Made by a program: the position numbers and the translations under genes. A stretch of DNA of 64,000 nt, taken from Sipunculus nudus. Its lineage: Eukaryota > Annelida > Sipuncula > Golfingiida > Sipunculidae. Positions 4,364 through 64,000 of the stretch are shown here, in pieces. Below the pieces are notes generated by a model. It was not told where the DNA came from. It searched no databases and worked only from the letters and a program-made list of their open reading frames with translations. The DNA is taken from assembly GCA_026874595.1 (NCBI GenBank), contig CM049316.1, forward strand, positions 10,594,839-10,658,838, written 5' to 3'. The number at the start of each line of letters is the position of its first letter. Position 1 is the first letter of the stretch.

Positions 4364-5030
4364 CTACCCCTCCCCCACTTTATCAAGTGGGGTGATCGTG
4401 CCGGGGTTCCGTTTGCCACTGATCTTTTGCCAGTCGAGCCACATTTTGAGGTCTTTATAAAACTTTATCTGCTTCACCTTTTCGACATGGCTTTTGCTAA
4501 ACCTTAGCATGTGATCGATCACATATTTTATATCTGCCTTCTCCTGAAGCACAGACACCCGGGTCCGAGGCGGGAGTCTCAAGGCTGTCCTTAAGACTCT
4601 GTTTTGAAGCCCATGAAGTTTTTTAATGTGGTGTTCTTTGGCTGAGATCAGGGCTATGAAACCGTAGGTCATGACCGGTCTGATCCAGGCTTTATAAAGA
4701 TATATCAAACTTTGGGTAGACATGCCTCCTGTTCCTGCTTTTAGCACTCTTGCTGGCCATGTGAGTGTCTTATCAACCGTCAGCCCCAGAAATTTTATCT
4801 GGTCCGTGAACTGAATTGGTTCTCCGGCCAATTTCAGTTCTGGCGCTTTGCCGGCTATGCTACCTCCCAGATGCCTTCCGAACTTGCAAGCCTGCGTTTT
4901 CGTCGCATTGACTTTTACTCGCCATTTGGCGCACCACTTTGTCACTTCGACTAGACCGGACTGTAGCCTGGGTACTGCTCGCTAACTACTAGTATGTGTC
5001 CATAGCGCAGTGTCATCTGCTCGTAGCCCC
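4364..5030 (-). pseudogene. Broken non-LTR retrotransposon reverse transcriptase (C-terminal part)
   Basis: The minus strand encodes 193 residues open from 4945 to 4364. They match the thumb and C-terminal part of Jockey/I-type LINE reverse transcriptases: a WRVKVN..KT segment, then FLGLTVDKTLTW, LYKAWIRPVMTYG and LQNRVLRTALRLP. Reading further 5' in the same frame gives the ADDTALW catalytic-loop motif near 5005-5028. An in-frame TAG near 4983-4985 separates it from the open part, and the residue before ADD is Arg rather than the usual Tyr or Phe. No endonuclease domain or upstream RT motifs were found to the right, so the copy is 5'-truncated and inactive. Assignment to a clade is tentative. 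Confidence 0.75.
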
Positions 5031-8493: not shown

Positions 8494-8682
8494 ATGGCTT
8501 GGCGTCGTCTGGTTAGCCTTCCAAAGACTGTAAGTGCAGCTTTTTCAGCAGGACTGGAATCGGCTGGAACCCGCCACTGTTTTCCCGCCACCAGAATTGC
8601 TACCACGACCAGGTTTCAAAGCAACGCACCAGCTCCGTCACCTGACCTTCCGAGTGTCGTAGACATGAAATATGGTGAAAAG
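8494..8682 (+). CDS. Creatinase exon 1 (leader)
   Basis: Codons 1-63, phase 0 at the end, donor AAG|GTGAGC. The first ATG in frame is at 8494 (MAWRRLVSLPKTV); an upstream in-frame GTG is not a likely start. The segment is rich in Arg, Ser, Ala and Thr with no acidic residue until Glu22, as in mitochondrial presequences. The last eight codons (DMKYGEK and around) begin to resemble the N-terminus of bacterial creatinase. Intron 1 is 4.9 kb. Confidence 0.85.
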
Positions 8683-11600
8683 GTGAGCTCAAATAGCATT
8701 TCAGTGGATTTTTTTGCCAAAGAATAAATACACTGCGTACCTAATGCAGTTAGTTTTATCTGTAGCCTTTAACGCTGACTGCATGTAAGACAACTGAGGT
8801 ATAGGAATGGCGCTTTGTCCGTCGGGCGTCCGGCGTCGGCCGTCCGTTAGCATGGCAAAAATCGTAACTGCTGGTCCTAGAAACTTCTAAATGAAAATCC
8901 AGGGAGGTCAATAAAAAATCTCCTTGGAAACCTGAAATTAGGTCACTGTGACTTACATCCTCCGAGCTATGGGGCTTGAAAGTAACCCCCCCCCCCCAAG
9001 AATAATAACAAAATTGATATAAAACCTGCAATATCTTGATAATTTATGTATGGATTGTCATGAATCCTGCCTTGAATATTGACCATGACTAGTTTAATTA
9101 AGTTCCTGAAAAGTGGTGGCGCCACCAGTATTTTTTCTTATTTCAACGAATATTTTTCATTTTTTTTTACTATAAAATGACAACAATCATGTCAGTTTCT
9201 CAGCTGTGATACATCTAGTGTCCCAAAACCTGGTATGTTTATTGATCACAAGTGGATGCCCTATAGTAATCACCCTGTCTCTCTGTCTGTCTGTTTAGCT
9301 GTCTGTCTGTCTATCCGTCCATCCACACAAATTGTTTTCAGAAGATAACTCCAGGTTGAATGACTCATGCATGGATTTTAAACTTGACTTACATATGGCC
9401 CACTACTTAAGCAAGAATCTGTATTATTTTTGGGTCATGAGATCAAGGTCACATGACTCACTTATTTAAAAAGATTATGGCTGCATTTTAAGCCAAGCTC
9501 TTCACCCCAAACTTTCCATCTTGCGCATTCAGCTGACTTGCCAGTATGGGTTTAGCATAAGTGAAGTTGGGGTCTAATGGTCAAAGGTCAAGGTTACAGG
9601 ACCCATATTTTTTAAATGAATGTGTATGCATTTCAAGCCAAACATTCATCACAAACCTTCCATCTTCAGGATATTGCTCTCCTGCCAATAGGGGAAGATT
9701 CTATTCGACTTTGGGGTCATAAGGTCAAAAGTCAAGGTCACAGGGCCCCTCCATTCACAAATTAATTTATGGATGATAATTCTGCTTTAGATTGACATAT
9801 TGGCTTAAACTTGATTTATTAATGACCCACCACTTAGGTAAGAATCATTTTGATTTAAAAGGTCCAGAGTTCAAAGGTGAAGGTCACAGGAGCCACATCT
9901 TTAAATACTGTACTGTAAATAAGACTCTTCATCCCAATCTTCCATCTTTCAACCATGGCTTACTTGCCCAAAGTGAGGAAATCTGTAGATTTTGAGGTTA
10001 CCTGGTCAGAGGTCCAAATGCTGCAAGTTCAAGGATAAAAAGTTGTCAGATCTTTTGGTCACAAGGTCATTGGTTAAGGTCACAGGACTGTCATTCTGAA
10101 ATGTCTAAAGATTGTTACAATAATCTAAATGCTGCAAGTTCAAGGATAATAAGTTCCCAGATTTTTTTTTTATCACAAGCTCATTGAGGACCATCATTCT
10201 GAATAATTTCTTGAAAAATATCTTTATAGACAAATTCAGCCACAGGCACTCGTTTCCAGCTCTAAAATGGCTCGGAAACTGTAAACACTGAGTATGGGCG
10301 AATAACTGGTATATTGCCCATACACAATGTTTACGATGTCATAGCCATTTTAGTGCTGGAAATGAGTGCCTGTGTTTCAGAGAACATTAAGAAACATTTC
10401 GCGTGTATGTATGTTTTTTATCTTTAAACTGTCGTGTTGTAAGTACGAACACGTATAAATCGTGCTTATGAATAATTTATTCGACTGCCAGGTGTGAGTA
10501 TGTACTTATGAAAAGGTAAAAAATGTTCAGTTCCCGTTTTACTTGCAGCCCACGCGCATGGTGAACTGCAATCAGTATCAACATATGAATACAGTGATAT
10601 ATGTATATACACATGTTGATATATATATATATATATATATATAGTACGCTGTGCTTCTCCGAAGAATGACATGATGTATTATCCTGTGATTTAGTCACTA
10701 TTACAGTAGCGTCAGATGTCGTGTTTGAACGTGTTTAGTTTTTTTTTGCGCCCTACTTTTTATACACGTGGACATAAACATATAAAAAGTTGGATCGGCG
10801 TTCTTCATCTATTTTGATATGGTAGAAAAAATTCAGAAGATATTCAAAGCTGAAGGTCTAGGAGTTATTCCTAAATTGACAAGCGCTTATCCGTTGATAT
10901 AGAAAACTGGTTAAATGCTTATTTTAACTTCCGAAGTCCTGTTAGTGAAAAAAATAGAAGTGAATATGGGAAAATGTATCCAACTTTAACTTTGCATTTG
11001 AACTGAGAAGAAGACCTGCATATACCATGCAGAGGTTCCAGGATTATACGGGGAAAAAAGAGATCAAACTCGATGCATACATTGTAATATGCATTATAGT
11101 AAAATCATAGACAATTTAAGGTGCATGTAATAGGCCTATACCTTGCTTTGGGGAAAAACCATCTGACGCCGCTGACCTCCGGCCCAGGAAAGGCCTATCC
11201 ATGAAAGAAAACCGATTCCAGGCTGAAGCCGAGGCATATGCCATAGCCTATATTTATATATATAGGCCTATATACAAGCTACATAGGCAGGCCAATGGGA
11301 CCCACGTAATCGTTTGTTCTCTTTAGCATCGTATCAGATTATCAGTATAAAAAAGAATGCTTAATACTTAATAGTTCTTGGATTCAACAAATTCAACAAA
11401 TGAACAAAAACCAACCCGAGAGCCATGCATGGTCCCCTGATCGGGTGCATTAATCACATGGTGAAAAAAAATCTTTCTCTTTTTCCAAGACACTTTAAGA
11501 TCTAGGAAGGCGTAAAAAGCTTTCATTGGTACAACCATCGATCGATCGAGAGAGAGAGAGAGAGAAAAAACCTTTCACTATTTAACACAATGGGATACTT

Positions 11601-14600
11601 AGGCATGTACTTAATGAAGAATTTTCAAATTTTAAAAGGGACATTCCCCGGTGTTTGTTGTAAGACGCTTCTTCACGAACCCAAAATTAAAATGGCTTCC
11701 CGTCCTAACTTAAGAATGTCCTAGGAAAAAAAGAGATATGGATATTAATGTCCACTAATAAAGTCCACTATTAATAATACCACTTTTTGACCGGGTGACT
11801 CCAAATATTGCGGTCGCTCCATTGTGAAACTGGCAACAATTTAATATTTCTCAAACAGCTCTAGTATTCTATTCAGTGTTGTTGTCGAGTCGATCCACAG
11901 TTTCCACACCATCCCGGTCCGAGTGCAACTTCGAGTCAAGGCCATCCGAGTCCAAGTCCGTGTCCTAACGGATCGAGTCCAAGTCCACCTTCGTGTCCAA
12001 GTCATTTTGAACCCCAAGTCCAAGTCCTATTAATACAAATATCCGTAAAAAATAATTTAAACTGGAAATTCCGAATTATCATGTAATTTTTAAGTTAATT
12101 CACACATGATTTTACTGTAATGATAAATAACATTTATAGCTCCCGACGCTAAGCAAAGCTTGGTATATGTAATGTAATTAGTTTGTCCTATTCTATTAAT
12201 AGTTCGCATATATACATAAGTCTTTAAAATATGTAACTTACGGACCCAAGATGGACTCCGCTTGATTTCTCCTGAACTCCGAGTACAAGTCCGAGGACTC
12301 GAGTCCATACATCACTGATCTTATTATAATTTAAGGATTCGGGCGCAGTCCAAAAAAGCGTTCTTCCGAAATTATGGGTATACCGTTAATCTGTTTAATG
12401 TAGCTTCATGAGATCTGAATAATCAATTACCCGTATTTCAATCAGAGATTCTACAGACATCAGGTTTTAGGAGATATATGGTAAAATAGAAAAAAGGTGT
12501 GATTATAAACAACAATAATATACATATAACATATACTAATATGTATACATTATGTGACTTCAAGACAATGAGAATGTTGAACACTATAAAATCTAAATTC
12601 TAAGGAATGTACGCCTCCTTCTTGTGGGGGGTTTATATTGTGGAATGCTTCCAAAACCGTGTTTGCATTTATTATTCGTCCCATATTGCCATGTGCATTC
12701 GTGACTCTACATTTGTGAATACTCATTGTTGACGTTACTGAATCCGTATCATGTGCCAGATCCACGCCAAATTCAAATCGATTCTTCATTGGTCCATTCC
12801 CGAAATGCAGTGAAAATCATGAGATTCAGTTCATGATCGCGTGAGTTTATGTTGTGAACAAACAAACAAATACACACACGAACGAGGGTGAATGCATACC
12901 CTCCTTGCGAAAGTATTAACACGTCAACCGGAGCTAAATGTTTGATAATTGTTATGGTCAAAGTCGTCAAATTCATGCTCGTCACTTTGTCCTGTCCTCA
13001 TAATACGACCAGAACAATGAGGATGCCGCGTTTTAGGAGTCCGTTTTTTGCCCTCTCGATTCAGGTCACACATGACATTGTCATAAGAAGTATCACGTGA
13101 CCTTGTATTATTTCATATGAATGGTCGAAGTCCGTTCTCAGTACAAACTCGCGAAGTACTTGTTAGATAAGCACACAACAGTGAATGTCCCAATGCGATT
13201 TCCTTCTTTTTTCGACCAAGAACATCACGGGAATAGTGATATACGCTGAATAAAGCCTAACGAAAAGAAGCGCCGGATTTTGCGTCTGTTGCGGTTTTTT
13301 GGTGCATGCGATGATGTACCAGCCCCGACACACGTTCGCGCAGTATTTACATTGGCTAATTAAATTCATTCTCCCGTTCCCGAAGGTTATATTTCACAGT
13401 ACTAAAACCCACAGGCATACATAATTAAAACATATTCAAACCAAATTTTATGGTGTCTGAGTTTAAACAAAGCTAGAAAAATTCTAGCTTCCTCCCTCGC
13501 TTGACATAGGTTTGTACAGAGATTTCAAGTCTAGTCTTCAAATCTGCCATCGCTCTTGAGGTATAATTTATTTACCTATTTTATTTTTAGGTACCGTCTA
13601 TATTCAGTCGTGATGAGTATGAGCGCCGCCTGGCGACCCTCAGATGTCATATGAACAGGGAGGAGATCGGAGTATGCGTGTTGACCTCCTACCATAACAT
13701 CAATTATTACAGTGGCTTTCTTTACTGCGCGTTTGGACGTCCATATGCACTGGTGGTAACTCCGGAGAATTCCTACGTTGTCTCCGCGGCGATTGATGGT
13801 GGCCAGCCGTGGAGGAGATGCCATGCGGACAATCTAACATTCACTGACTGGCAAAAGAACAATTACCTAAAGGCTGTCAAACAAGCAGCAGGGGAGATAC
13901 GCGGGAAAGTCGGAATTGAATTTGATCATGTGACTTTGGACTCCCGCCAAAAATTTGAATCTCTTTTTCCAAATAAGGTATTTGAGGACGTAGGTGCCCC
14001 GACGATGCGATTGCGTATGGTAAAATCAGCAGAAGAAATTAGGGTGATTAAAGAAGGGGCCCGTATTGCTGATATTGGAGGTTGGGCGGCGGTTGAGGCA
14101 CTTGAAGATAATATTCCTGAATACGAGGTGGCGCTTGCATCCACCAGGGCGATGATAAGGGAGATTGCAAAAACGTTCCCAAATTCTGAACTTCAGGACA
14201 GTAAGTTTCAGAAGTTCGTTAAACTATTAAAACCAAAATAGGGGCAATAAACATTTCCCTCAAACATAGTTTCAGTTTGCAAACCAGTTTGAAAAATAAT
14301 ATACATGTATAATAATTGCCTATATTTTTTGTTTTGTTTTATATTAATCACAAAGTTTTGACTTTCTCTTTAGACTCGTTTAATTTTTTAACCTTCCTGA
14401 CCATATTGGGCAAACCAGGTGTAACAAAACCTTGATTTATTTTTCTGTCAGCGTGGACGTGGTTTCAGTCTGGAATCAACACGGACGGGGCACACAATCC
14501 TGTAACGTCACGACGGGTGCAGAAAGGAGACATACTCAGTCTAAACTGTTTCCCCATGACTTCTGGGTGAGCTATACCATTATTGACACCCCGGGCATAT

Positions 14601-16777
14601 CCTTATGAAAAGGCAGGTAATAGGTAAAATATAGTAAGCCGCAATAGTAATAGTAAAACATAATTCTTCCCACTATCAGAGCCATAAACTTTTGCTGTGG
14701 CGCTACGATAAGAACAGGAACTACCACCTCGCGGAAAATTATATAACTAAACTAGAATACGAGTAGTCGACAAGCGACTGCGTGTATCAGCCGAAATCAG
14801 AGTGGGACGGCTGAAGTGAGGCATGGATTGAGTGGCAAGGGGAAATAGAGTGAGGTGTGTTGCATATTAGCATGGATGTCTGCAGCCGAAATTGGTATGG
14901 AGGTGGCCACCTAACACAAAATCCAGAAAGCTATCCAAGTTGTATACATATGCAAAATTTTAGACAGATAAGTCAAACCACTACTTGTATATGAGTAATT
15001 GTATCCCAAGGCAAACAGACGGACGCTGTGCAAAAAAGGATATGTCAAACCAGTCATGAGATACAACCTGAACGTGAATGTAGGTGGCGCCACCTGTCAT
15101 GAAATCATAAAAGCCATCCAGGATGTATACACATGCAAAATGTCAGTTGGATAAGTCCAACCAATGCAGAGATATGAGTGATTTTATCCCAAGGCAAATG
15201 AACAGATAGACGCTGTAAAAAAATGGTTGCAGGTGGCGTCACCATTTTAGTGAATGTTATAAAGCTATCCAAAGGCTACATTTTATAAAAATGTTAAGCC
15301 TGATCGGTCAAACGGTTCCCGAGATATGTGGGTTTATGTGTGGAAACAGACGCACAAATGGACGCTGGGCAGAAAGGGAAATGTTGCAGGTCAACCAAAA
15401 ATGAGGGCGCAGCAGTTCACATGTGCCCCGATCATAATTCCGAATTTTAATAAAAATCTGCCCAGTGGTTACGGATAAGTTCTCCGGAAACCTATGCGGC
15501 GGCGGCGGCAGCGTGCGACTGAAAACATAGTATCCGCAAAACTCTGTTTTGGCGGATACAATAACGACTCTCTGGTCGACTATTTCATATGTGATAACCG
15601 CTGGTACTGAATTACGTGTATCGGTATTTGGTACATGGAATCACGTTTTATTTTAGACATTTTAGTAGCAAACCTAAATACCATAAAGCCCAGGCAGGGC
15701 TTGAAAGCCGCGTGTCCCCTTTTTTTGGGTGCCGAGGCGGACGAGTACATATGTACAAAAATAAAACGTTCCATTTGTGCGGTTCTGAGTGTGGTCCGGC
15801 ATAAGACTGCGGATACGTTTATGCAAACCGGCTCAAATAGCGATAAGTAGGGAAACATATACGGAAACATGCTCGGTGCTATTTTGAACAGGTGAAAGTC
15901 CTAAAAACCCGCTCTGATAAACGTTTATATCGGAATGTGCCCCGCACTGCGTCCGTACATGACGACACGTAGCATTACATGAACAAAAAAAATCAGAAAC
16001 AAATTCTGCTTTCAACTGAAGTGAAAAGGGTAGAGAATCGTTCTAAATATTTACTCCAGATGGCGCTAATAAGCAACGTCTATGTAAATATTAATAATAT
16101 ACCGGGATTTCAAGTGACCATAATCATTAAACATAAGAACCGAGTATTCCTTTATTAATCAAAGTGTTCATGGACACAGCGCTTATATCATATCACTTAG
16201 GCATAGACGTCAATTGAATTAAAATTACAAAACAAAATACACAAATGTTTATGTGTTCCTATTCTGTATGTCTCATCTCTTCGTACTTCCAGCTATTATA
16301 CTGCACTTGAGCGGACGCTGTTTTTCGACCACGTGACCGAGGAGCATCTCCGGCTGTGGGAAATTAATGTAAAGGTCCATGAACGAGGTCAACAGCTCAT
16401 CAGACCCGGCGCCCGCTGCTGCGACATCGCAGCCGAACTCAACGACATCTACCGGCAATACGACTTATTAAAATACCGCAGTTTCGGCTACGGTCATTCG
16501 TTCGGGGTGTTGTGTCACTACTATGGCAGGGAAGCAGGTACTTGTGATTAATATAGCATACTTCAAAGGCATCTTATTGTACAGTCATTATTTGTTCCTA
16601 ACAGAACTTAAATTATTGCAGTTTCATTTGCATAAGAACATCTGTTACTGCGTTTGTCCAAATAGAGAGGGCTAATAATGATAGATAACGTTTAATTTCA
16701 TTAATTACACTGAATTAAAAATTGGGTCTTTGAGAGAGAAAGAGAGAGAGAGAGAGAGACAAAGAGACAGAGAGAAA

Positions 16778-16809
<32 letters not shown>

Positions 16810-17771
16810 CAGAGAGACAGAGAGATACATAGATAGAGGGAGAGATGTTCTTGTGTTCATTATGTGGTCACTGCAAATCAAATTAATAAAAAGTTTATTC
16901 GTTGTTAGATTGTTCTTGCGCCATAATAATAATATTGCTTCTTACAGCAACGCATCCAGTTTCTCGGAAAATCTTTTGTTCCTTAATTTCTACGTAATGT
17001 TGTATAGCGAATAATCAAATAATCGATACGACGGTGTCACGTTTTGGGTAACACAAAGACATGCTGGAAATTTAATGGTCCGTGTATGTATGAATGTATG
17101 TATATATATATATATATGTATATGTATATAAATATAAATAGAATGAATGCCGTTAGCTGCATTCTAACAACATTCACCTGAGGATTGGGTCGCATCCCGT
17201 GAGACAGTCTGTCGTGAATTTACAGTTGTTTTTCTTCAGTGTTATATCGCTCTTGCCTTGTCTGAAGGCCATAGAACACTTTACGCCGGAGGGTAACTCT
17301 ACTTTCTTTATATATAAATATGTATATACGACTGAACGTTTGCGTTTACGGGGTGGAAAAGTCAATATAAAAGACCCTTACTCTGATGAGTGTATATGTT
17401 AGTATATGTATATAAAAGTACAGATTCACTTAACGGAATGCAGATTTATACATGACTGTAGGGGGCGCCACCTGAACCAGCCTCTTATGAAACAACATAG
17501 ATGTTGGGTAGATCGAAATATGTTACATTCTACCGTTCTTGTTATTAATTAAATATGATTTTTTTTAGAACTTGAACTACGAGAAGATATCACCACTGTG
17601 TTAAAACCAGATATGGTAGTGTCAATGGAACCCATGATCATGTTGCCGCCCCACCTGGCGGGCGCTGGCGGATACAGAGAACACGACATACTGGTTGTCA
17701 CAGAGAACGGGGCCGAGAACATCACCGGGTTTCCTTACGGGCCAAAACATAACATAATTAAAAAAGAATAG
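8494..17771 (+). CDS. Creatinase (creatine amidinohydrolase), whole gene, 5 exons
   Basis: Join of 8494-8682, 13591-14200, 14452-14566, 16293-16537 and 17569-17771: 1362 nt, 453 aa. Creatinase (EC 3.5.3.3, pita-bread/M24 fold, homodimer) hydrolyses creatine to sarcosine and urea without metal. From residue 64 the protein is co-linear with bacterial creatinase, about 403 aa. Residues known in the Pseudomonas enzyme are all present at a fixed offset of 49: Phe111 and Arg113 (carboxylate binding), catalytic His281, Glu311 and Glu407 (guanidinium binding), His373, Arg384 and His425. The absence of shifts across four introns argues strongly for correct exon joining. The first about 50 residues are an added leader. 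All introns are GT-AG and phases agree. The nearest ATAAA-type polyadenylation signal is at 17983-17988. Function is inferred from homology; the alternative, a non-creatinase M24 paralogue, is unlikely given the conserved creatine-site residues. Confidence 0.93.
8775..9185 (+). repeat. Family A single copy
   Basis: One unit with a degenerate head (about 8785), a GTCCGTCGGGCGTCCGG tract near 8817, the 'acctgaaattaggtcactgtgac' and 'gagctatggggct' segments, and TGGCGCCACC near 9117 followed by T-runs. Same orientation as the array at 914-3133. Confidence 0.7.
9290..10200 (+). repeat. Degenerate tandem repeat rich in nuclear-receptor half-sites
   Basis: Units of roughly 140-190 bp repeat the order: 'ttaaacttgacttacatatggcccactactta', 'aagaatct', a 'ggtcaaaggtcaaggtcacagg' block, then 'aagccaa..cttcatcccaaactttccatctt'. 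AAGGTCA-like blocks fall near 9443, 9583, 9722, 9875 and 10065. Preceded by a TCTGTCTGTCTGTC tract near 9283-9310. Confidence 0.65.
10241..10374. mobile_element. Foldback MITE-like palindrome
   Basis: The left arm starts CACAGGCACTCGTTTCCAGC, continuing with a ctctaaaatggct segment. The right arm is its near-perfect reverse complement, ending AATGAGTGCCTGTG at 10374. Homology continues into the middle (GTAAACA.TG..TATGGGC), so almost the whole 134 bp can fold on itself. No coding capacity. Confidence 0.75.
10619..10643. repeat. (AT)n microsatellite
   Basis: Uninterrupted TA dinucleotides of about 24 bp within creatinase intron 1. Confidence 0.9.
11836..12310 (+). repeat. Degenerate copy of the 27-bp minisatellite element
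   Basis: Degenerate 'gagtccaagtcc' words at 11886-12030, then a non-repetitive tail (aatttaaactggaaatt, tttatagctccc, agttcgcatatatacataagtct). The same tail order occurs at 19862-19960 and resumes at 21395-21590. A second short cluster of 'ccgagtacaagtccgag' lies at 12275-12310. Together they define one element family with minisatellite blocks at each side of an AT-rich spacer. Confidence 0.65.
13591..14200 (+). CDS. Creatinase exon 2 (N-terminal domain and start of catalytic domain)
   Basis: Residues 64-266 plus the first base of codon 267. Acceptor TTTTTAG|GTACCG, donor GGACA|GTAAGT. Contains the TSYHNINYYSGFLYCAFGRPYA segment region (residues 95-116), with Phe111 and Arg113 that in the bacterial dimer reach into the partner's active site. 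It also contains IDGGQPWRR and the MVKSAEE helix leading into the pita-bread domain. No frameshift or stop. Confidence 0.95.
14201..14451 (+). other. Creatinase intron 2
   Basis: 251-bp phase-1 GT-AG intron with no recognisable content. Confidence 0.85.
14452..14566 (+). CDS. Creatinase exon 3 (catalytic His)
   Basis: 115 nt after TTTCTGTCAG. Completes Thr267 (a|cg) and ends two bases into Gly305 before GTGAGC. Encodes WTWFQSGINTDGAHNPVT, with catalytic His281 (bacterial His232), then KGDILSLNCFPM. Too short to be seen as a free open frame; recognised from homology and splice phase. Confidence 0.93.
14567..16292 (+). other. Creatinase intron 3
   Basis: 1726-bp phase-2 GT-AG intron. Its centre is an inverted family B element (about 14780-15566). 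15570-16290 is of unknown nature with several short overlapping open frames but no homology recognised. Confidence 0.8.
14780..15566 (-). mobile_element. Family B TIR element, inverted short copy
   Basis: The left end GTGTATCAGCCGAAATC and right end TTTTGGCGGATACAATAAC are the two termini of the 6000-7877 element in reverse order. Inside are about two core units with GGTGGCGCCACC near 15083 and degenerate sites near 14905 and 15232. The GC-rich GCGGCGGCGGC segment near 15498 corresponds to CCGCCGCCGCC near 6051 in the other copy. It lies in an intron of the creatinase gene, antisense to it. Confidence 0.75.
16293..16537 (+). CDS. Creatinase exon 4
   Basis: Acceptor TTCCAG|CTATTA; the first base completes Gly305. 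Codes residues 306-386 and the first base of 387; donor GCAG|GTACTT. Carries Glu311 in YYTALERT, the helical linker ending in AAELNDIY, His373 in FGYGHSFG and Arg384 in HYYGREA, all expected creatine-site residues. The junction residue is Glu387 where the bacterial enzyme has Gly, a surface-loop change of unknown effect. Confidence 0.94.
16538..17568 (+). other. Creatinase intron 4
   Basis: 1031-bp phase-1 GT-AG intron. It contains a long AG-rich microsatellite (16731-16835), a TA-rich run (17099-17118) and a lone AGGGGGCGCCACCTG site at 17459-17473. The remainder is AT-rich and unremarkable. Confidence 0.85.
16731..16835 (+). repeat. (AG)n / (GAGACA)n microsatellite
   Basis: About 100 bp of GA dinucleotides interspersed with GACA, inside creatinase intron 4. 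It gives an open frame of alternating Arg/Glu that is not a protein. Confidence 0.9.
17569..17771 (+). CDS. Creatinase exon 5 (C-terminus)
   Basis: Acceptor TTTTTTAG|AACTTG; the first two bases complete Glu387. Codes residues 388-453 and TAG at 17769-17771. Contains MVVSMEPMIMLP with Glu407, GAGGYREHDIL with His425, and the conserved end NGAENITGFPYGPKHNIIKKE, close in length and sequence to the bacterial C-terminus, so the protein is not truncated. Confidence 0.95.
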
Positions 17772-17982
17772 CACTGGCTAAGAATTAACAAAGTAAACGT
17801 AATGAGAAGTGAGTTTGTTGGAAGTAATCGTATACATGTGGAGAAATTAAGTAAATTAGAGTTGTTCATTTATGGGCAAATTGTGCAATCGGGTTCTTTA
17901 AATATTAAAATTGAAAAATTTGTTACAAATCTACAAATGGATATTTTAGGTTTCAGATTTTTATACACAATATGCTGATATT

Positions 17983-18739: not shown

Positions 18740-19855
18740 GCGAGTCCGAGCGCAATCCCAAGTCCAGGCCACTCGGAACCAAGTCCGAGTCCAGGCCACT
18801 CGAATCCAAGTCCGAGTCAAGGTCACTCAAATCCAAGTCCGAGTCCAGGCCACTCGAATCCAAGTCCGAGTCCAGGCCACTCGAATCCAAGTCCGAGTCC
18901 AGGTCACTCGAATCCAAGTCCGAGTACAGGCCACTCGAATCAAAGTCCGAGTCCAGGCCACTCGAATCCAAGTCCGAGTCCAGGCCACTCGAATCCAAGT
19001 CCGAGTCCAGGCACTCGAATCCAATCCGAGTCATGGCCAAGGCGAATCCAAGGCCAAGTCAGAGTCCAGGTCACTGGAATCCACGTCGGAGTCATGGCCA
19101 CTCGAATCAAAGTCCGAACACAGGCCACTCGAATCCAAGTCCGAGTCCAGGCCACTCGAATCCAATCCGAGTCATGGCCAAGGCGAATCCAAGGCCAAGT
19201 CGGAGTCTAGGTCACTCGAATCCACGTCGGAGTCATGGCCACTCGAATCAAAGTCCGAACACAGGCAAATCGAATCCAAGTCCGAGTCCAGGCCACTCGG
19301 ATCCAACTCCGAGTCATGGCCACTCGAATCCCAGCCAAAGTCATAGCCACTAGAATCCGACGCAAGGCAGGCCAATCGAATCTGAGTCCAGGCAGACCAC
19401 TCAAATCCAAGTCCGAGTCCAGGGCACTTGAATCCAAGTCCAAGTCCGATACATGGCCACTAGAATCAAAGTCCGAACCCAGGCCACTCAAATCCAAGTC
19501 CGAGACATGGCCACTCGAATCGGAGTCCAGGCCACTCGAATTAAAGTCAAAGTCCGAGTCATGGCCACTCAAATCCAAGTCCGAGTCCAGGGCACTTGAA
19601 TCCAAGTCCGAACCATGGCCACTCGAATCCAAGTTCGAGTCCATGCCTTTCGAATCCGAGTCCAAGCCACTCGAATTCAAGTCCAAAACCGAGTCATGGC
19701 CACTCGAATCCAAGGCCAAGTCCAAGGCTTGGCCACTCGAATCCGAGTTCATGTCAGAATCCAGGCCAATCAAATCCAAGTCCAAGTCTCAGTCATGGCC
19801 TCTCAAATCCAAGTCCCAATCATGGCAACTCGAATCCAGTACAAATACATGTATC
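18740..19855 (+). repeat. 27-bp minisatellite array
   Basis: Over 1.1 kb of a 27-bp unit made from 'ccactcgaatccaagtcc' and 'gagtccagg', with higher-order variants containing 'gagtcatggccaaggcgaatc' duplicated near 19020-19085 and 19165-19230. Because 27 is divisible by three and the unit lacks stops, several frames on both strands are open for 60-218 codons. These are artefacts of the repeat. Confidence 0.9.
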
Positions 19856-33766: not shown

Positions 33767-61086
<27,320 letters not shown>

Positions 61087-64000
61087 CTGCAAAAATAAAA
61101 CAAATATAAACAAATATTAAAGAACAAAGTAAACAAACTAAAAATCAATATATATCATTATTAATATTAAATGGTCATCTATAATGAAATCAAAACCAAT
61201 TTAAACATGAATATTTCAACACTGACTTCATCTGGTGGTTGATTTTAATTTGTTTCCCATCTGACATTTGGTTCTTTTTTTTTTTATACAGAATACAGCT
61301 ATGTATCATTATACCAAGCAAGCAGTCAGTCCCACATGCTCCAAGATAAACATATATGTCAAGGACACAAAGTCTTGTCCTCTTAATATTTAAAATACTA
61401 AGACACTGAAATAAGATGTGCACTTTACCAGGTTTGTTCTGTTATTTGGTTTTCATCCATGTCAACCATTTCAAAGAAACTGAAGTGAACTTTAACATGA
61501 CCAGAATCTGTATAATAGTATTTCAATTGTTCAACAGAGGGCACTGAAGTCACATTTTAACCTGTACACATGCAACCCACCCACTATCTACTGTGAAAGA
61601 GACAAATGCATGTATGTAAACACAAAACACCTGATTTAACCTGCATTTTAAATTATAATTATACATATTAATCTCTTAACAAAGTTAAATATTCATATAT
61701 GTTACAAACACAAAAGTGCACATAGGAAAAATGTTTTAAATTCCTGTTACGAACAAACTGAAATTAATCTTTCTAAATTGTTAGGTTGTCTAGAATGAAG
61801 TTCTTTACATGTATTTAGATCTTGTTCTTGACCAGAGGATGAGGTATGACCTGTTGAGTTGACCTTCTGACCTGCCTCTTAACACTTAGATGGAACATAA
61901 TAAATTCTCTCTCTCTACTGGCAGACATCTCAAGTATTATGAAGTGTGTTGATTAATGGTTCCCACTTGGCCGGCCTTAATTACCAACTCCAAGAGATTC
62001 TAATTACCACAGGGCCTTCAAGGACATACTTTCCATTAATCATCAGAACTTGTGTTAATTAGTGCAGGCTGTGAGACCTGGGCCATGACACACGATCATT
62101 AAGGAGACCATTGTGTATATTATTAATCCTCTACCCTCCTTCCTGGGCATTAAGCAGAGAATTAGTACCAAAATCTAGATTTATATGAGGATATATGCTG
62201 TCTGTTTTCAAAGGACTGACTTTATTACAACTCTGGTCCATATCTGCGGAAACAGCACAGTTATGTGTAAGGGAATGAAAACATAAACTTAGAGTGACTA
62301 CATTAATCAATCATTTTAAAATGAGAATAATTGTTAATTTTAAAATGGCACTCGTTATTGTGTGTTAAAGTTTTATTAACCACTTGATTTATTCAGCATG
62401 TGTTCCACAAGAATCATGTTTCCCTGAAAACTCTAAATGATTATTATATCTATATTATATTGCATACATATTAACTGTTTTAGGTATTCTACCAACTAAT
62501 TCTGTCATTCAAAAGTAATAAACATTAATATAATTGATAGTATCATATATAAAGTACAATGTTAGAAATATAATGCAGAACCAAATAAAAACAAAGTCAA
62601 TGGGTTATGTCAATTGAGCAAAAAGGTCCAATCATATTAACTGACACAGTCAATAAACAGTTCAGTTCTACAAAATAATACAGACCAGACTGTGATATAT
62701 TAACGAAAGTCTAATATATTGTAAAGAATAAGCAATATGTGTATCTGACATAAAAACCTCAAATACTGAACATTAATAATTACTGGACACAGAAACAGTT
62801 ACAAGGGAATATATACTATACAAAAACACACACACAACACAGTTATCAAGTGAAGTGGTCTGATTGTATATGGTTGTTTGTGTAACTGATTCTGCCATCC
62901 TACAACCAGTAAAACCCCAAGTTTCAACGCCTCATTCCTGATAACCTTGCCGGTTTACCTGTATCAACTACTGACACAGAGCAAGGTTTATCAATAAGAT
63001 CCCACACAAAGCAGGTCACAGCTGATAAATCGTCCCAAAAAGGAGCCTCAATGACACCCCACAAGGCCGTGCAAGGTCAAATATATCCTTGTTATAAATT
63101 TAAAAACAAACTTGCCTGATTGATAGTAGCCTTATTTGAATAGACAGGATGTTCCTGAGTGATTCACTGTATGTTTCATACACTTCACTTAAAATAGTTT
63201 AGCTTATGGTTTAACAGTGCTCACTGATAAAGACTGGAAGATACTTATAACTGACACTTTTCTCATGCACCTGAAACACACTAATAAAAGATATATAGTA
63301 AAACCTCTCCTCATGACCATCTCACTCTAGAGATCACCTCTGAATAACGACTACTTTTTACAGGTCCCAATTATTTTTCACTCTTTAAGTAAAATCTCAA
63401 TTAAGACTACCAAATCGATTTGTTCTCAATTAACCTTTTCCCGATTTGATATTCGAAATAATTCACCACCCCAATCTACTGCCAATAAATCCTGTGGTTC
63501 AGGTGTTGCTGAGAGGATGGAGCGATGGAGTAAATGCTGGTCTGATCACCTGCATATTGTAGTGAACTTTTCCATGTTGCTGGCAGACAGCATATATAGG
63601 AAGTACCACCCCCCACTAGATGTCACCAGCTGTGGTTTCCCCTGTATTCATTTTCAATACAGATGTACAAACTCATAAGATAAACATTTCACCAAACATT
63701 AAAACAAAAGGCAGCTTGTGTTTATTCAAATGACTGTAATTTACTGTAAAGTACCAGACTGTCCTTAGCTGTTGCCCCCCTGGATTGTTCTTTCAGTATA
63801 CCGGGTAATTGATAAAGGGGGCTGGTGAATCTTCAGGGGAGCATTTGATCATAAATCTGCTCATATAACTGGCCAACCAGAGACAAACCCAGACATAACT
63901 GTTTAGAAATGGCTAGATTTTGTGGGCAGCTGAGTGTATGACTATAAATAAATGAGGTTTTGTTGGCCAAGACTGACATATATGTCCTCGCAGAGAACAG
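61087..64000 (-). other. Upstream intron or 5' flank of the ANKRD11/12-like gene
   Basis: No first coding exon was recognised on the minus strand. A one-sided MITE-like end (GTAAAACCTCTCCTCATGACC) is at 63299. Otherwise AT-rich with nothing supported. Confidence 0.5.

Follow-up and report, generated by a model that had tools for sequence, protein, structure and literature searches.

An intron-containing gene for a predicted creatinase, likely mitochondrial, in the genome of Sipunculus nudus

The window analysed here is a 64,000-nucleotide stretch of the Sipunculus nudus genome (GenBank assembly GCA_026874595.1, contig CM049316.1, positions 10,594,839 to 10,658,838), and positions 8494-17771 of its plus strand carry an intron-containing gene for a predicted creatinase. 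The first-pass annotation, made from the sequence alone, had proposed five exons with GT-AG introns that code for 453 amino acids. This model was reproduced by a splicing script, which joined the five exons into 1362 bp (453 codons plus the stop) without an internal stop in the frame and placed all four introns between GT and AG (Table 1). The GC content of the coding sequence is 49.6%, compared with 28.7-41.3% in the introns. At the start codon, positions -3 and +4 are A and G, respectively; the stop codon is followed by ATTAAA at 17904 and, 212 bases 3' of the stop, by AATAAA.

Table 1. Features of the predicted creatinase gene (positions in the window)
Feature	Position	Strand	Description
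Exon 1	8494..8682	+	63 codons from the start codon on; encodes the presequence-like N-terminus (about residues 1-50) and the first residues aligning to bacterial creatinase; donor AAG/GTGAGC, phase 0
Intron 1	8683..13590	+	4908 bp; interspersed repeats within 8784-9136 and 9326-10240
Exon 2	13591..14200	+	N-terminal domain and linker, residues 64-266 plus one base; holds Phe111, Arg113
Intron 2	14201..14451	+	251 bp
Exon 3	14452..14566	+	Holds His281
Intron 3	14567..16292	+	1726 bp
Exon 4	16293..16537	+	Holds Glu311, His373, Arg384
Intron 4	16538..17568	+	1031 bp
Exon 5	17569..17771	+	Holds Glu407, His425 and stop TAG; codon 387 split over the exon 4/5 junction
Possible polyadenylation signal AATAAA	17983..17988	+	Motif only

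By its sequence, the encoded protein is close to certain to be a creatinase (creatine amidinohydrolase, EC 3.5.3.3) with the M24 fold. With an E limit of 0.001, a Protein Data Bank (PDB) sequence search with the 453 residues found 39 distinct sequences. The three solved creatinases ranked first with 603, 569 and 525 bits, whereas the next match, the Xaa-Pro dipeptidase 1pv9, reached 77 bits. The match to 1chm, the Pseudomonas putida creatinase, has an E value of 1.9e-180, and chance similarity is therefore excluded. The mature part is 65% identical to 1chm, with the same site residues and the same loss of metal ligands, and is slightly more distant from the creatinase 7yto (62%), which also has the same site residues. 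Both Pfam domains, Creatinase_N (PF01321, 57.8 bits) and Peptidase_M24 (PF00557, 103.2 bits), exceed their cut-offs. Eleven NCBIfam families were matched, none at its curated cut-off; all represent other M24 enzymes, including ectoine hydrolase and dimethylsulfoniopropionate (DMSP) lyase, and no creatinase model was among them. In a tree with three M24 outgroups, the 33 creatinase rows, including the animal one, were set apart at 100/99. The creatinase identity proposed in the first-pass annotation is thus upheld both by the PDB scores and by the grouping of the animal protein with creatinases, not with other M24 proteins. Ectoine hydrolase DoeA, aminopeptidase P and prolidase share the fold and the Pfam domains with the animal protein; in contrast to it, the M24 enzymes aligned have the metal ligands and lack part of the creatine-site residues.

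Conservation of the creatine site was assessed among the bacterial relatives found in GTDB, where at least 597 pattern matches were obtained and at least 530 confirmed. The best 80 of these 530 loci, together with two PDB sequences, gave an alignment of the animal protein with 82 bacterial creatinases. All eight creatine-site residues listed in Table 1 are kept in the animal protein, and none of them varies among the 82 bacterial rows. They stand at the positions predicted in the first pass, and the constant offset of +49 claimed there is correct for all eight in the usual P. putida numbering, which we take to be Phe62, Arg64, His232, Glu262, His324, Arg335, Glu358 and His376. In the alignment with 1chm the offset changes by one over a segment that runs from about residue 142 to about residue 168 (one insertion and one deletion) and contains none of the eight. 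Across the whole alignment, the animal protein keeps 123 of the 125 columns that are invariant in the bacterial rows (the exceptions being D153N and G387E) and 174 of the 186 columns that are at least 95% conserved, and its mature part has no residue inserted relative to all bacterial rows. Of the eight site residues, four are found in L001 and two (with two gaps) in L007, both of them M24 proteins encoded on bacterial contigs of this assembly. Moreover, the animal protein, like 1chm, has replacements for three of the five M24 metal ligands, with Asn, Ala and His for Asp, Asp and Glu of the dinuclear metal site. The animal residues also fit the creatinase site of an arginine pair, a glutamate pair, a phenylalanine and a catalytic histidine, as outlined in a published account (PMC3655251).

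The window lies in contig C11 of the assembly, which is 79.0 Mb long. Contigs C1, C16 and C17 measure 110.9, 63.5 and 61.1 Mb, respectively, whereas C18-C20 are below 0.1 Mb, and the assembly therefore probably has 17 chromosome-size contigs. The repeats of intron 1 have matches in C10 and C6 and in C152, a small contig. With its spliceosomal introns, host repeats and chromosome-size contig, this is an animal nuclear gene, in agreement with the earlier description of an intact, intron-containing gene in an animal chromosome.

A search of the assembly for M24 domains gave 39 matches, the creatinase locus being detected through exon 4 alone. Seven bacterial M24 genes (L001, L002, L004, L007, L137, L138 and L139) appear by eye to be peptidase-like or ectoine-hydrolase-like. 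L137 and L138 are 21-23% identical to the animal creatinase; the best match among the bacterial M24 genes compared is L137 (C109:24177-24809, on a bacterial-looking contig; ectoine-hydrolase-like by eye), with 23% identity. A tblastn comparison of the creatinase protein with L001-L008 gave no match at E up to 10. A recent transfer from a bacterium represented in the same assembly was rejected on the basis of these gene readings and tblastn results. No duplicate animal creatinase was found in L089-L093, which cover seven of the eight other M24 matches on animal contigs (all but C6:73537648), with no tblastn match at E < 1; L090, L092 and L093 resemble aminopeptidase P. This search was limited to M24-domain matches, and a diverged paralogue may lie elsewhere in the genome. 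Several bacterial-looking contigs (C61, C62, C66, C72, C74, C75, C82, C89 and C90) have multiple copies of M24 genes that score equally. In C89 one M24 gene occurs twice, at a distance of about 2.04 Mb; the pattern looks like a redundant assembly of related bacterial strains.

The best 80 of the 530 bacterial relatives are 61-67% identical to the animal protein. Phylogenetic analysis was based on a quick tree of 83 rows and a careful tree of 33 rows (30 of the 80 loci chosen for spread, the two PDB rows and the animal protein, which was the only animal sequence in the set). Among the creatinases, the animal row is positioned on a long branch in both trees (0.72 and 0.65, respectively), and no well-supported set contains it in either of them. 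In the tree with three M24 outgroups, a position of the animal row outside all bacterial rows was not rejected (approximately unbiased (AU) test, p = 0.219), with the outgroup branches at the ceiling of the program. No close bacterial sister indicative of a recent transfer was found among the best 80 of the 530 relatives. Together with the AU result, this means that the scanned set contains no recent donor and that an ancient transfer and an old retention, the two origins suggested in the first pass, are indistinguishable. A scan of viral contigs gave 78 pattern matches, none of them a relative.

The two PDB creatinases begin at about residues 51-52 of the animal protein, which leaves an N-terminal extension of about 50 residues that is not present in the bacterial relatives, 1chm and 7yto included. 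Residues 1-20 contain three Lys/Arg and no Asp/Glu, and residues 1-41 contain six Lys/Arg, one Asp/Glu and 17 Ser/Thr/Ala. This basic, acid-poor composition fits a mitochondrial presequence, and Arg40-Phe41 ahead of Gln42 would suit an R-2 cleavage site. Exon 1 consists almost solely of the extension, which would fit the joining of a targeting exon to an intron-less gene. Mitochondrial targeting is likely from the sequence; it is graded no higher because the helical moment of the N-terminus is not extreme.

Creatine kinase genes of two types were found in the genome. The gene on C3 has cytosolic-type exons, which score 444 bits to CK-M, 359 to 3ju5 (deposited as an arginine kinase) and 330 to lombricine kinase. 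On C8, two exons of mitochondrial type score 168 bits to mitochondrial creatine kinase versus 147 to cytosolic creatine kinase. Since both types are present, creatine is probably a native metabolite of the animal. Creatininase (PF02633) had no match in an exon-by-exon search of the genome, a search in which six of 14 control genomes gave matches, and there is therefore no sign of a creatinine-degrading pair. A search with FAO_M gave one match (L140), with one stop within the matched stretch. The phosphagen kinase matches also include arrays of arginine-kinase-type genes. In the open reading frame (ORF) of L119, the end of one kinase domain appears by eye to run into the start of the next, and two-domain kinases are probably present in the genome; such kinases are known from heterodont bivalves and some cnidarians.

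The kinase arrays have features of their own. A tandem array at C16:44157921-44529650 (L116, L117, L118, L120 and L122-L125), of arginine kinase type by eye, repeats a unit of about 6.35 kb. Its main exon occurs at least 24 times, in one block of 11 (44.158-44.222 Mb) and another of 13 (44.453-44.530 Mb), and no copy is present in L135 or L136, which lie between the blocks. Two of the copies, L116 and L123, share 98.5% identity over 3.4 kb with the introns counted in. A second kinase cluster, at C9:35905390-36073804 and C5:17851582-17912833 (L126 and L127), resembles arginine and taurocyamine kinases more closely than it does creatine kinases and differs in sequence from the genes on C16 and at C5:47.15 Mb.

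We consider with good confidence that the locus is a working nuclear animal creatinase gene, whose precursor would probably be mitochondrial and whose product would hydrolyse creatine. Function as a creatinase is very likely from the sequence; any physiological role is a guess. From the gene structure, the family membership, the conserved site and the creatine kinase genes we infer the activity, the targeting and the fate of the products as follows. The precursor would be made in the cytosol, and its first 41-50 residues or so would probably direct it to mitochondria and then be removed. The mature enzyme of about 400 residues would adopt the M24 'pita-bread' fold without a metal site and would bind creatine through two arginines, two glutamates, a phenylalanine and histidines, converting it to sarcosine and urea. 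The creatine would be supplied by food or by the creatine kinase system of the animal itself, its disposal thus being enzymatic; a mitochondrial sarcosine dehydrogenase would turn the sarcosine into glycine and a one-carbon unit, and the urea would leave the body by excretion.

Several observations weigh against parts of this reading. Glu387 (Gly338 in the P. putida count) stands three residues past the substrate arginine Arg384, at a position that is Gly throughout the 82 bacterial rows, and its codon is split by intron 4 as G/AA, so that the change of the invariant glycine sits on a splice junction; G387E may be a real change that lowers activity. Asn153 likewise replaces a bacterial invariant, Asp104 in the P. 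putida count. Alternative splicing that would restore Gly387 was considered and rejected: among 16 in-frame GT/AG pairs near the exon 4/5 junction, the full alignment is kept by the gene model alone, and each of the three pairs that give Gly387 loses some of the aligned residues beyond it. A protein with a creatinase-like fold that is expressed and acts on another guanidino compound, such as glycocyamine or taurocyamine, would agree with a Glu beside the substrate arginine and with a phosphagen-kinase-rich animal, in which the large arginine-kinase-type arrays may imply that such compounds are abundant. Nevertheless, all eight creatine-site residues and 123 of 125 invariant positions are kept, and a changed substrate appears quite improbable. 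On the metabolic side, the two-domain kinases 4wo8 and 4rf6 come near the creatine kinases in total score for the C3 and C8 genes, a score to which two domains can add up, and the FAO_M match L140 looks to us PDPR/DMGDH-like, which leaves sarcosine dehydrogenase not identified.

The mitochondrial location is subject to similar doubt. The presequence reading is based on composition only; the best helical moment of the N-terminus is 0.43, compared with a mean of 0.22 and a maximum of 0.65 in the mature part; and Met58, which is close to the bacterial start, could possibly start a cytosolic form. A cytosolic enzyme, in which the first 50 residues are no presequence or transcripts begin at Met58, is thus an unlikely alternative that still deserves serious consideration; it is opposed by the good start context of Met1 and by an N-terminus that is basic, Ser/Thr/Ala-rich and nearly free of acids, and that is not found in the two PDB creatinases. 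Membership in a different M24 family (prolidase, aminopeptidase P, ectoine hydrolase or the DMSP lyase DddP) is very improbable: the fold and the M24 domains are common to all of these enzymes, but the best PDB score to any of them is 77 bits, none of the 11 NCBIfam families reaches its cut-off (and no creatinase model was matched either), the metal ligands are lost, and the creatinases split from the three outgroups. The alternative was rejected on the PDB scores, the cut-offs and this split. The chance that the gene represents bacterial contamination or a chimeric contig is close to negligible. The assembly does seem to hold bacterial contigs, with long uninterrupted frames; however, the gene has four spliceosomal introns, intron repeats common to other contigs and a place in a 79-Mb contig, and on these three grounds contamination was rejected. 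In addition, the best bacterial relatives are just 61-67% identical to it.

Creatine amidinohydrolase activity has been measured in an animal before, in homogenates of the parasitic nematode Teladorsagia circumcincta in 2013, with an apparent Km of 1.1 mM and greatest activity at pH 8; Muhamad and others consider that the observation may be novel and state that no homologue was found in Caenorhabditis elegans or in the nematode sequences then available (PMC3655251). The reaction is the one predicted for the animal creatinase, but there the activity was described without a gene. The first-pass statement that creatinase is characterised from bacteria needs the amendment that the activity, without a gene, was already on record for this nematode (PMC3655251). 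Haemonchus is said, in the portion of a paper available, which presents no data on this point, to have several copies of creatine kinase and creatinase (PMC9406637); M24 peptidases carry a domain of that name, so the statement may be ambiguous. No paper devoted to an animal creatinase gene was found in the literature searched, which excluded most subscription-journal papers, and the term 'creatinase-like' occurred in none of the papers searched. Some invertebrate genomes have automatically annotated genes named creatinase. Vertebrates lose creatine through chemical decay to creatinine. New here are the presequence-like N-terminus, the creatine kinases of two types in the genome and the absence of a creatininase match.

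Tentatively, and with odds that we place a little short of even, this animal and perhaps invertebrates more widely may have a mitochondrial creatine-disposing enzyme through which the creatine kinase system would be linked with urea, sarcosine and one-carbon metabolism. Vertebrates have no such route, and a gene of this kind could account for the creatine amidinohydrolase activity, so far an orphan, that invertebrate homogenates show. If so, an animal with its own creatinase would control its creatine pool enzymatically and obtain sarcosine and urea from a second source, and the creatine amidinohydrolase activity reported in animals without a gene would become testable at the gene level. The enzyme family is well known and its host is unexpected; the former limits the surprise.

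Elsewhere in the window, an Rfam search of the 64 kb gave no match, and Pfam applied to 10 other ORFs gave one sub-threshold match, to reverse transcriptase (18.9 bits, below the cut-off of 29.6), in a 205-residue frame at 4364-4981 of the minus strand that is probably a decayed retroelement. Long minus-strand open frames of 645, 154 and 114 residues, at 38378-41433 and 60800-61144, resemble exons of a Ser/Pro/Lys-rich protein; they may belong to an ANKRD11/12-like gene, but Pfam found no match in them. A minisatellite of about 1 kb, with units mostly of 27-33 bp, occupies 18761-19851, beginning 1 kb 3' of the creatinase stop, and long open frames cross it on both strands.

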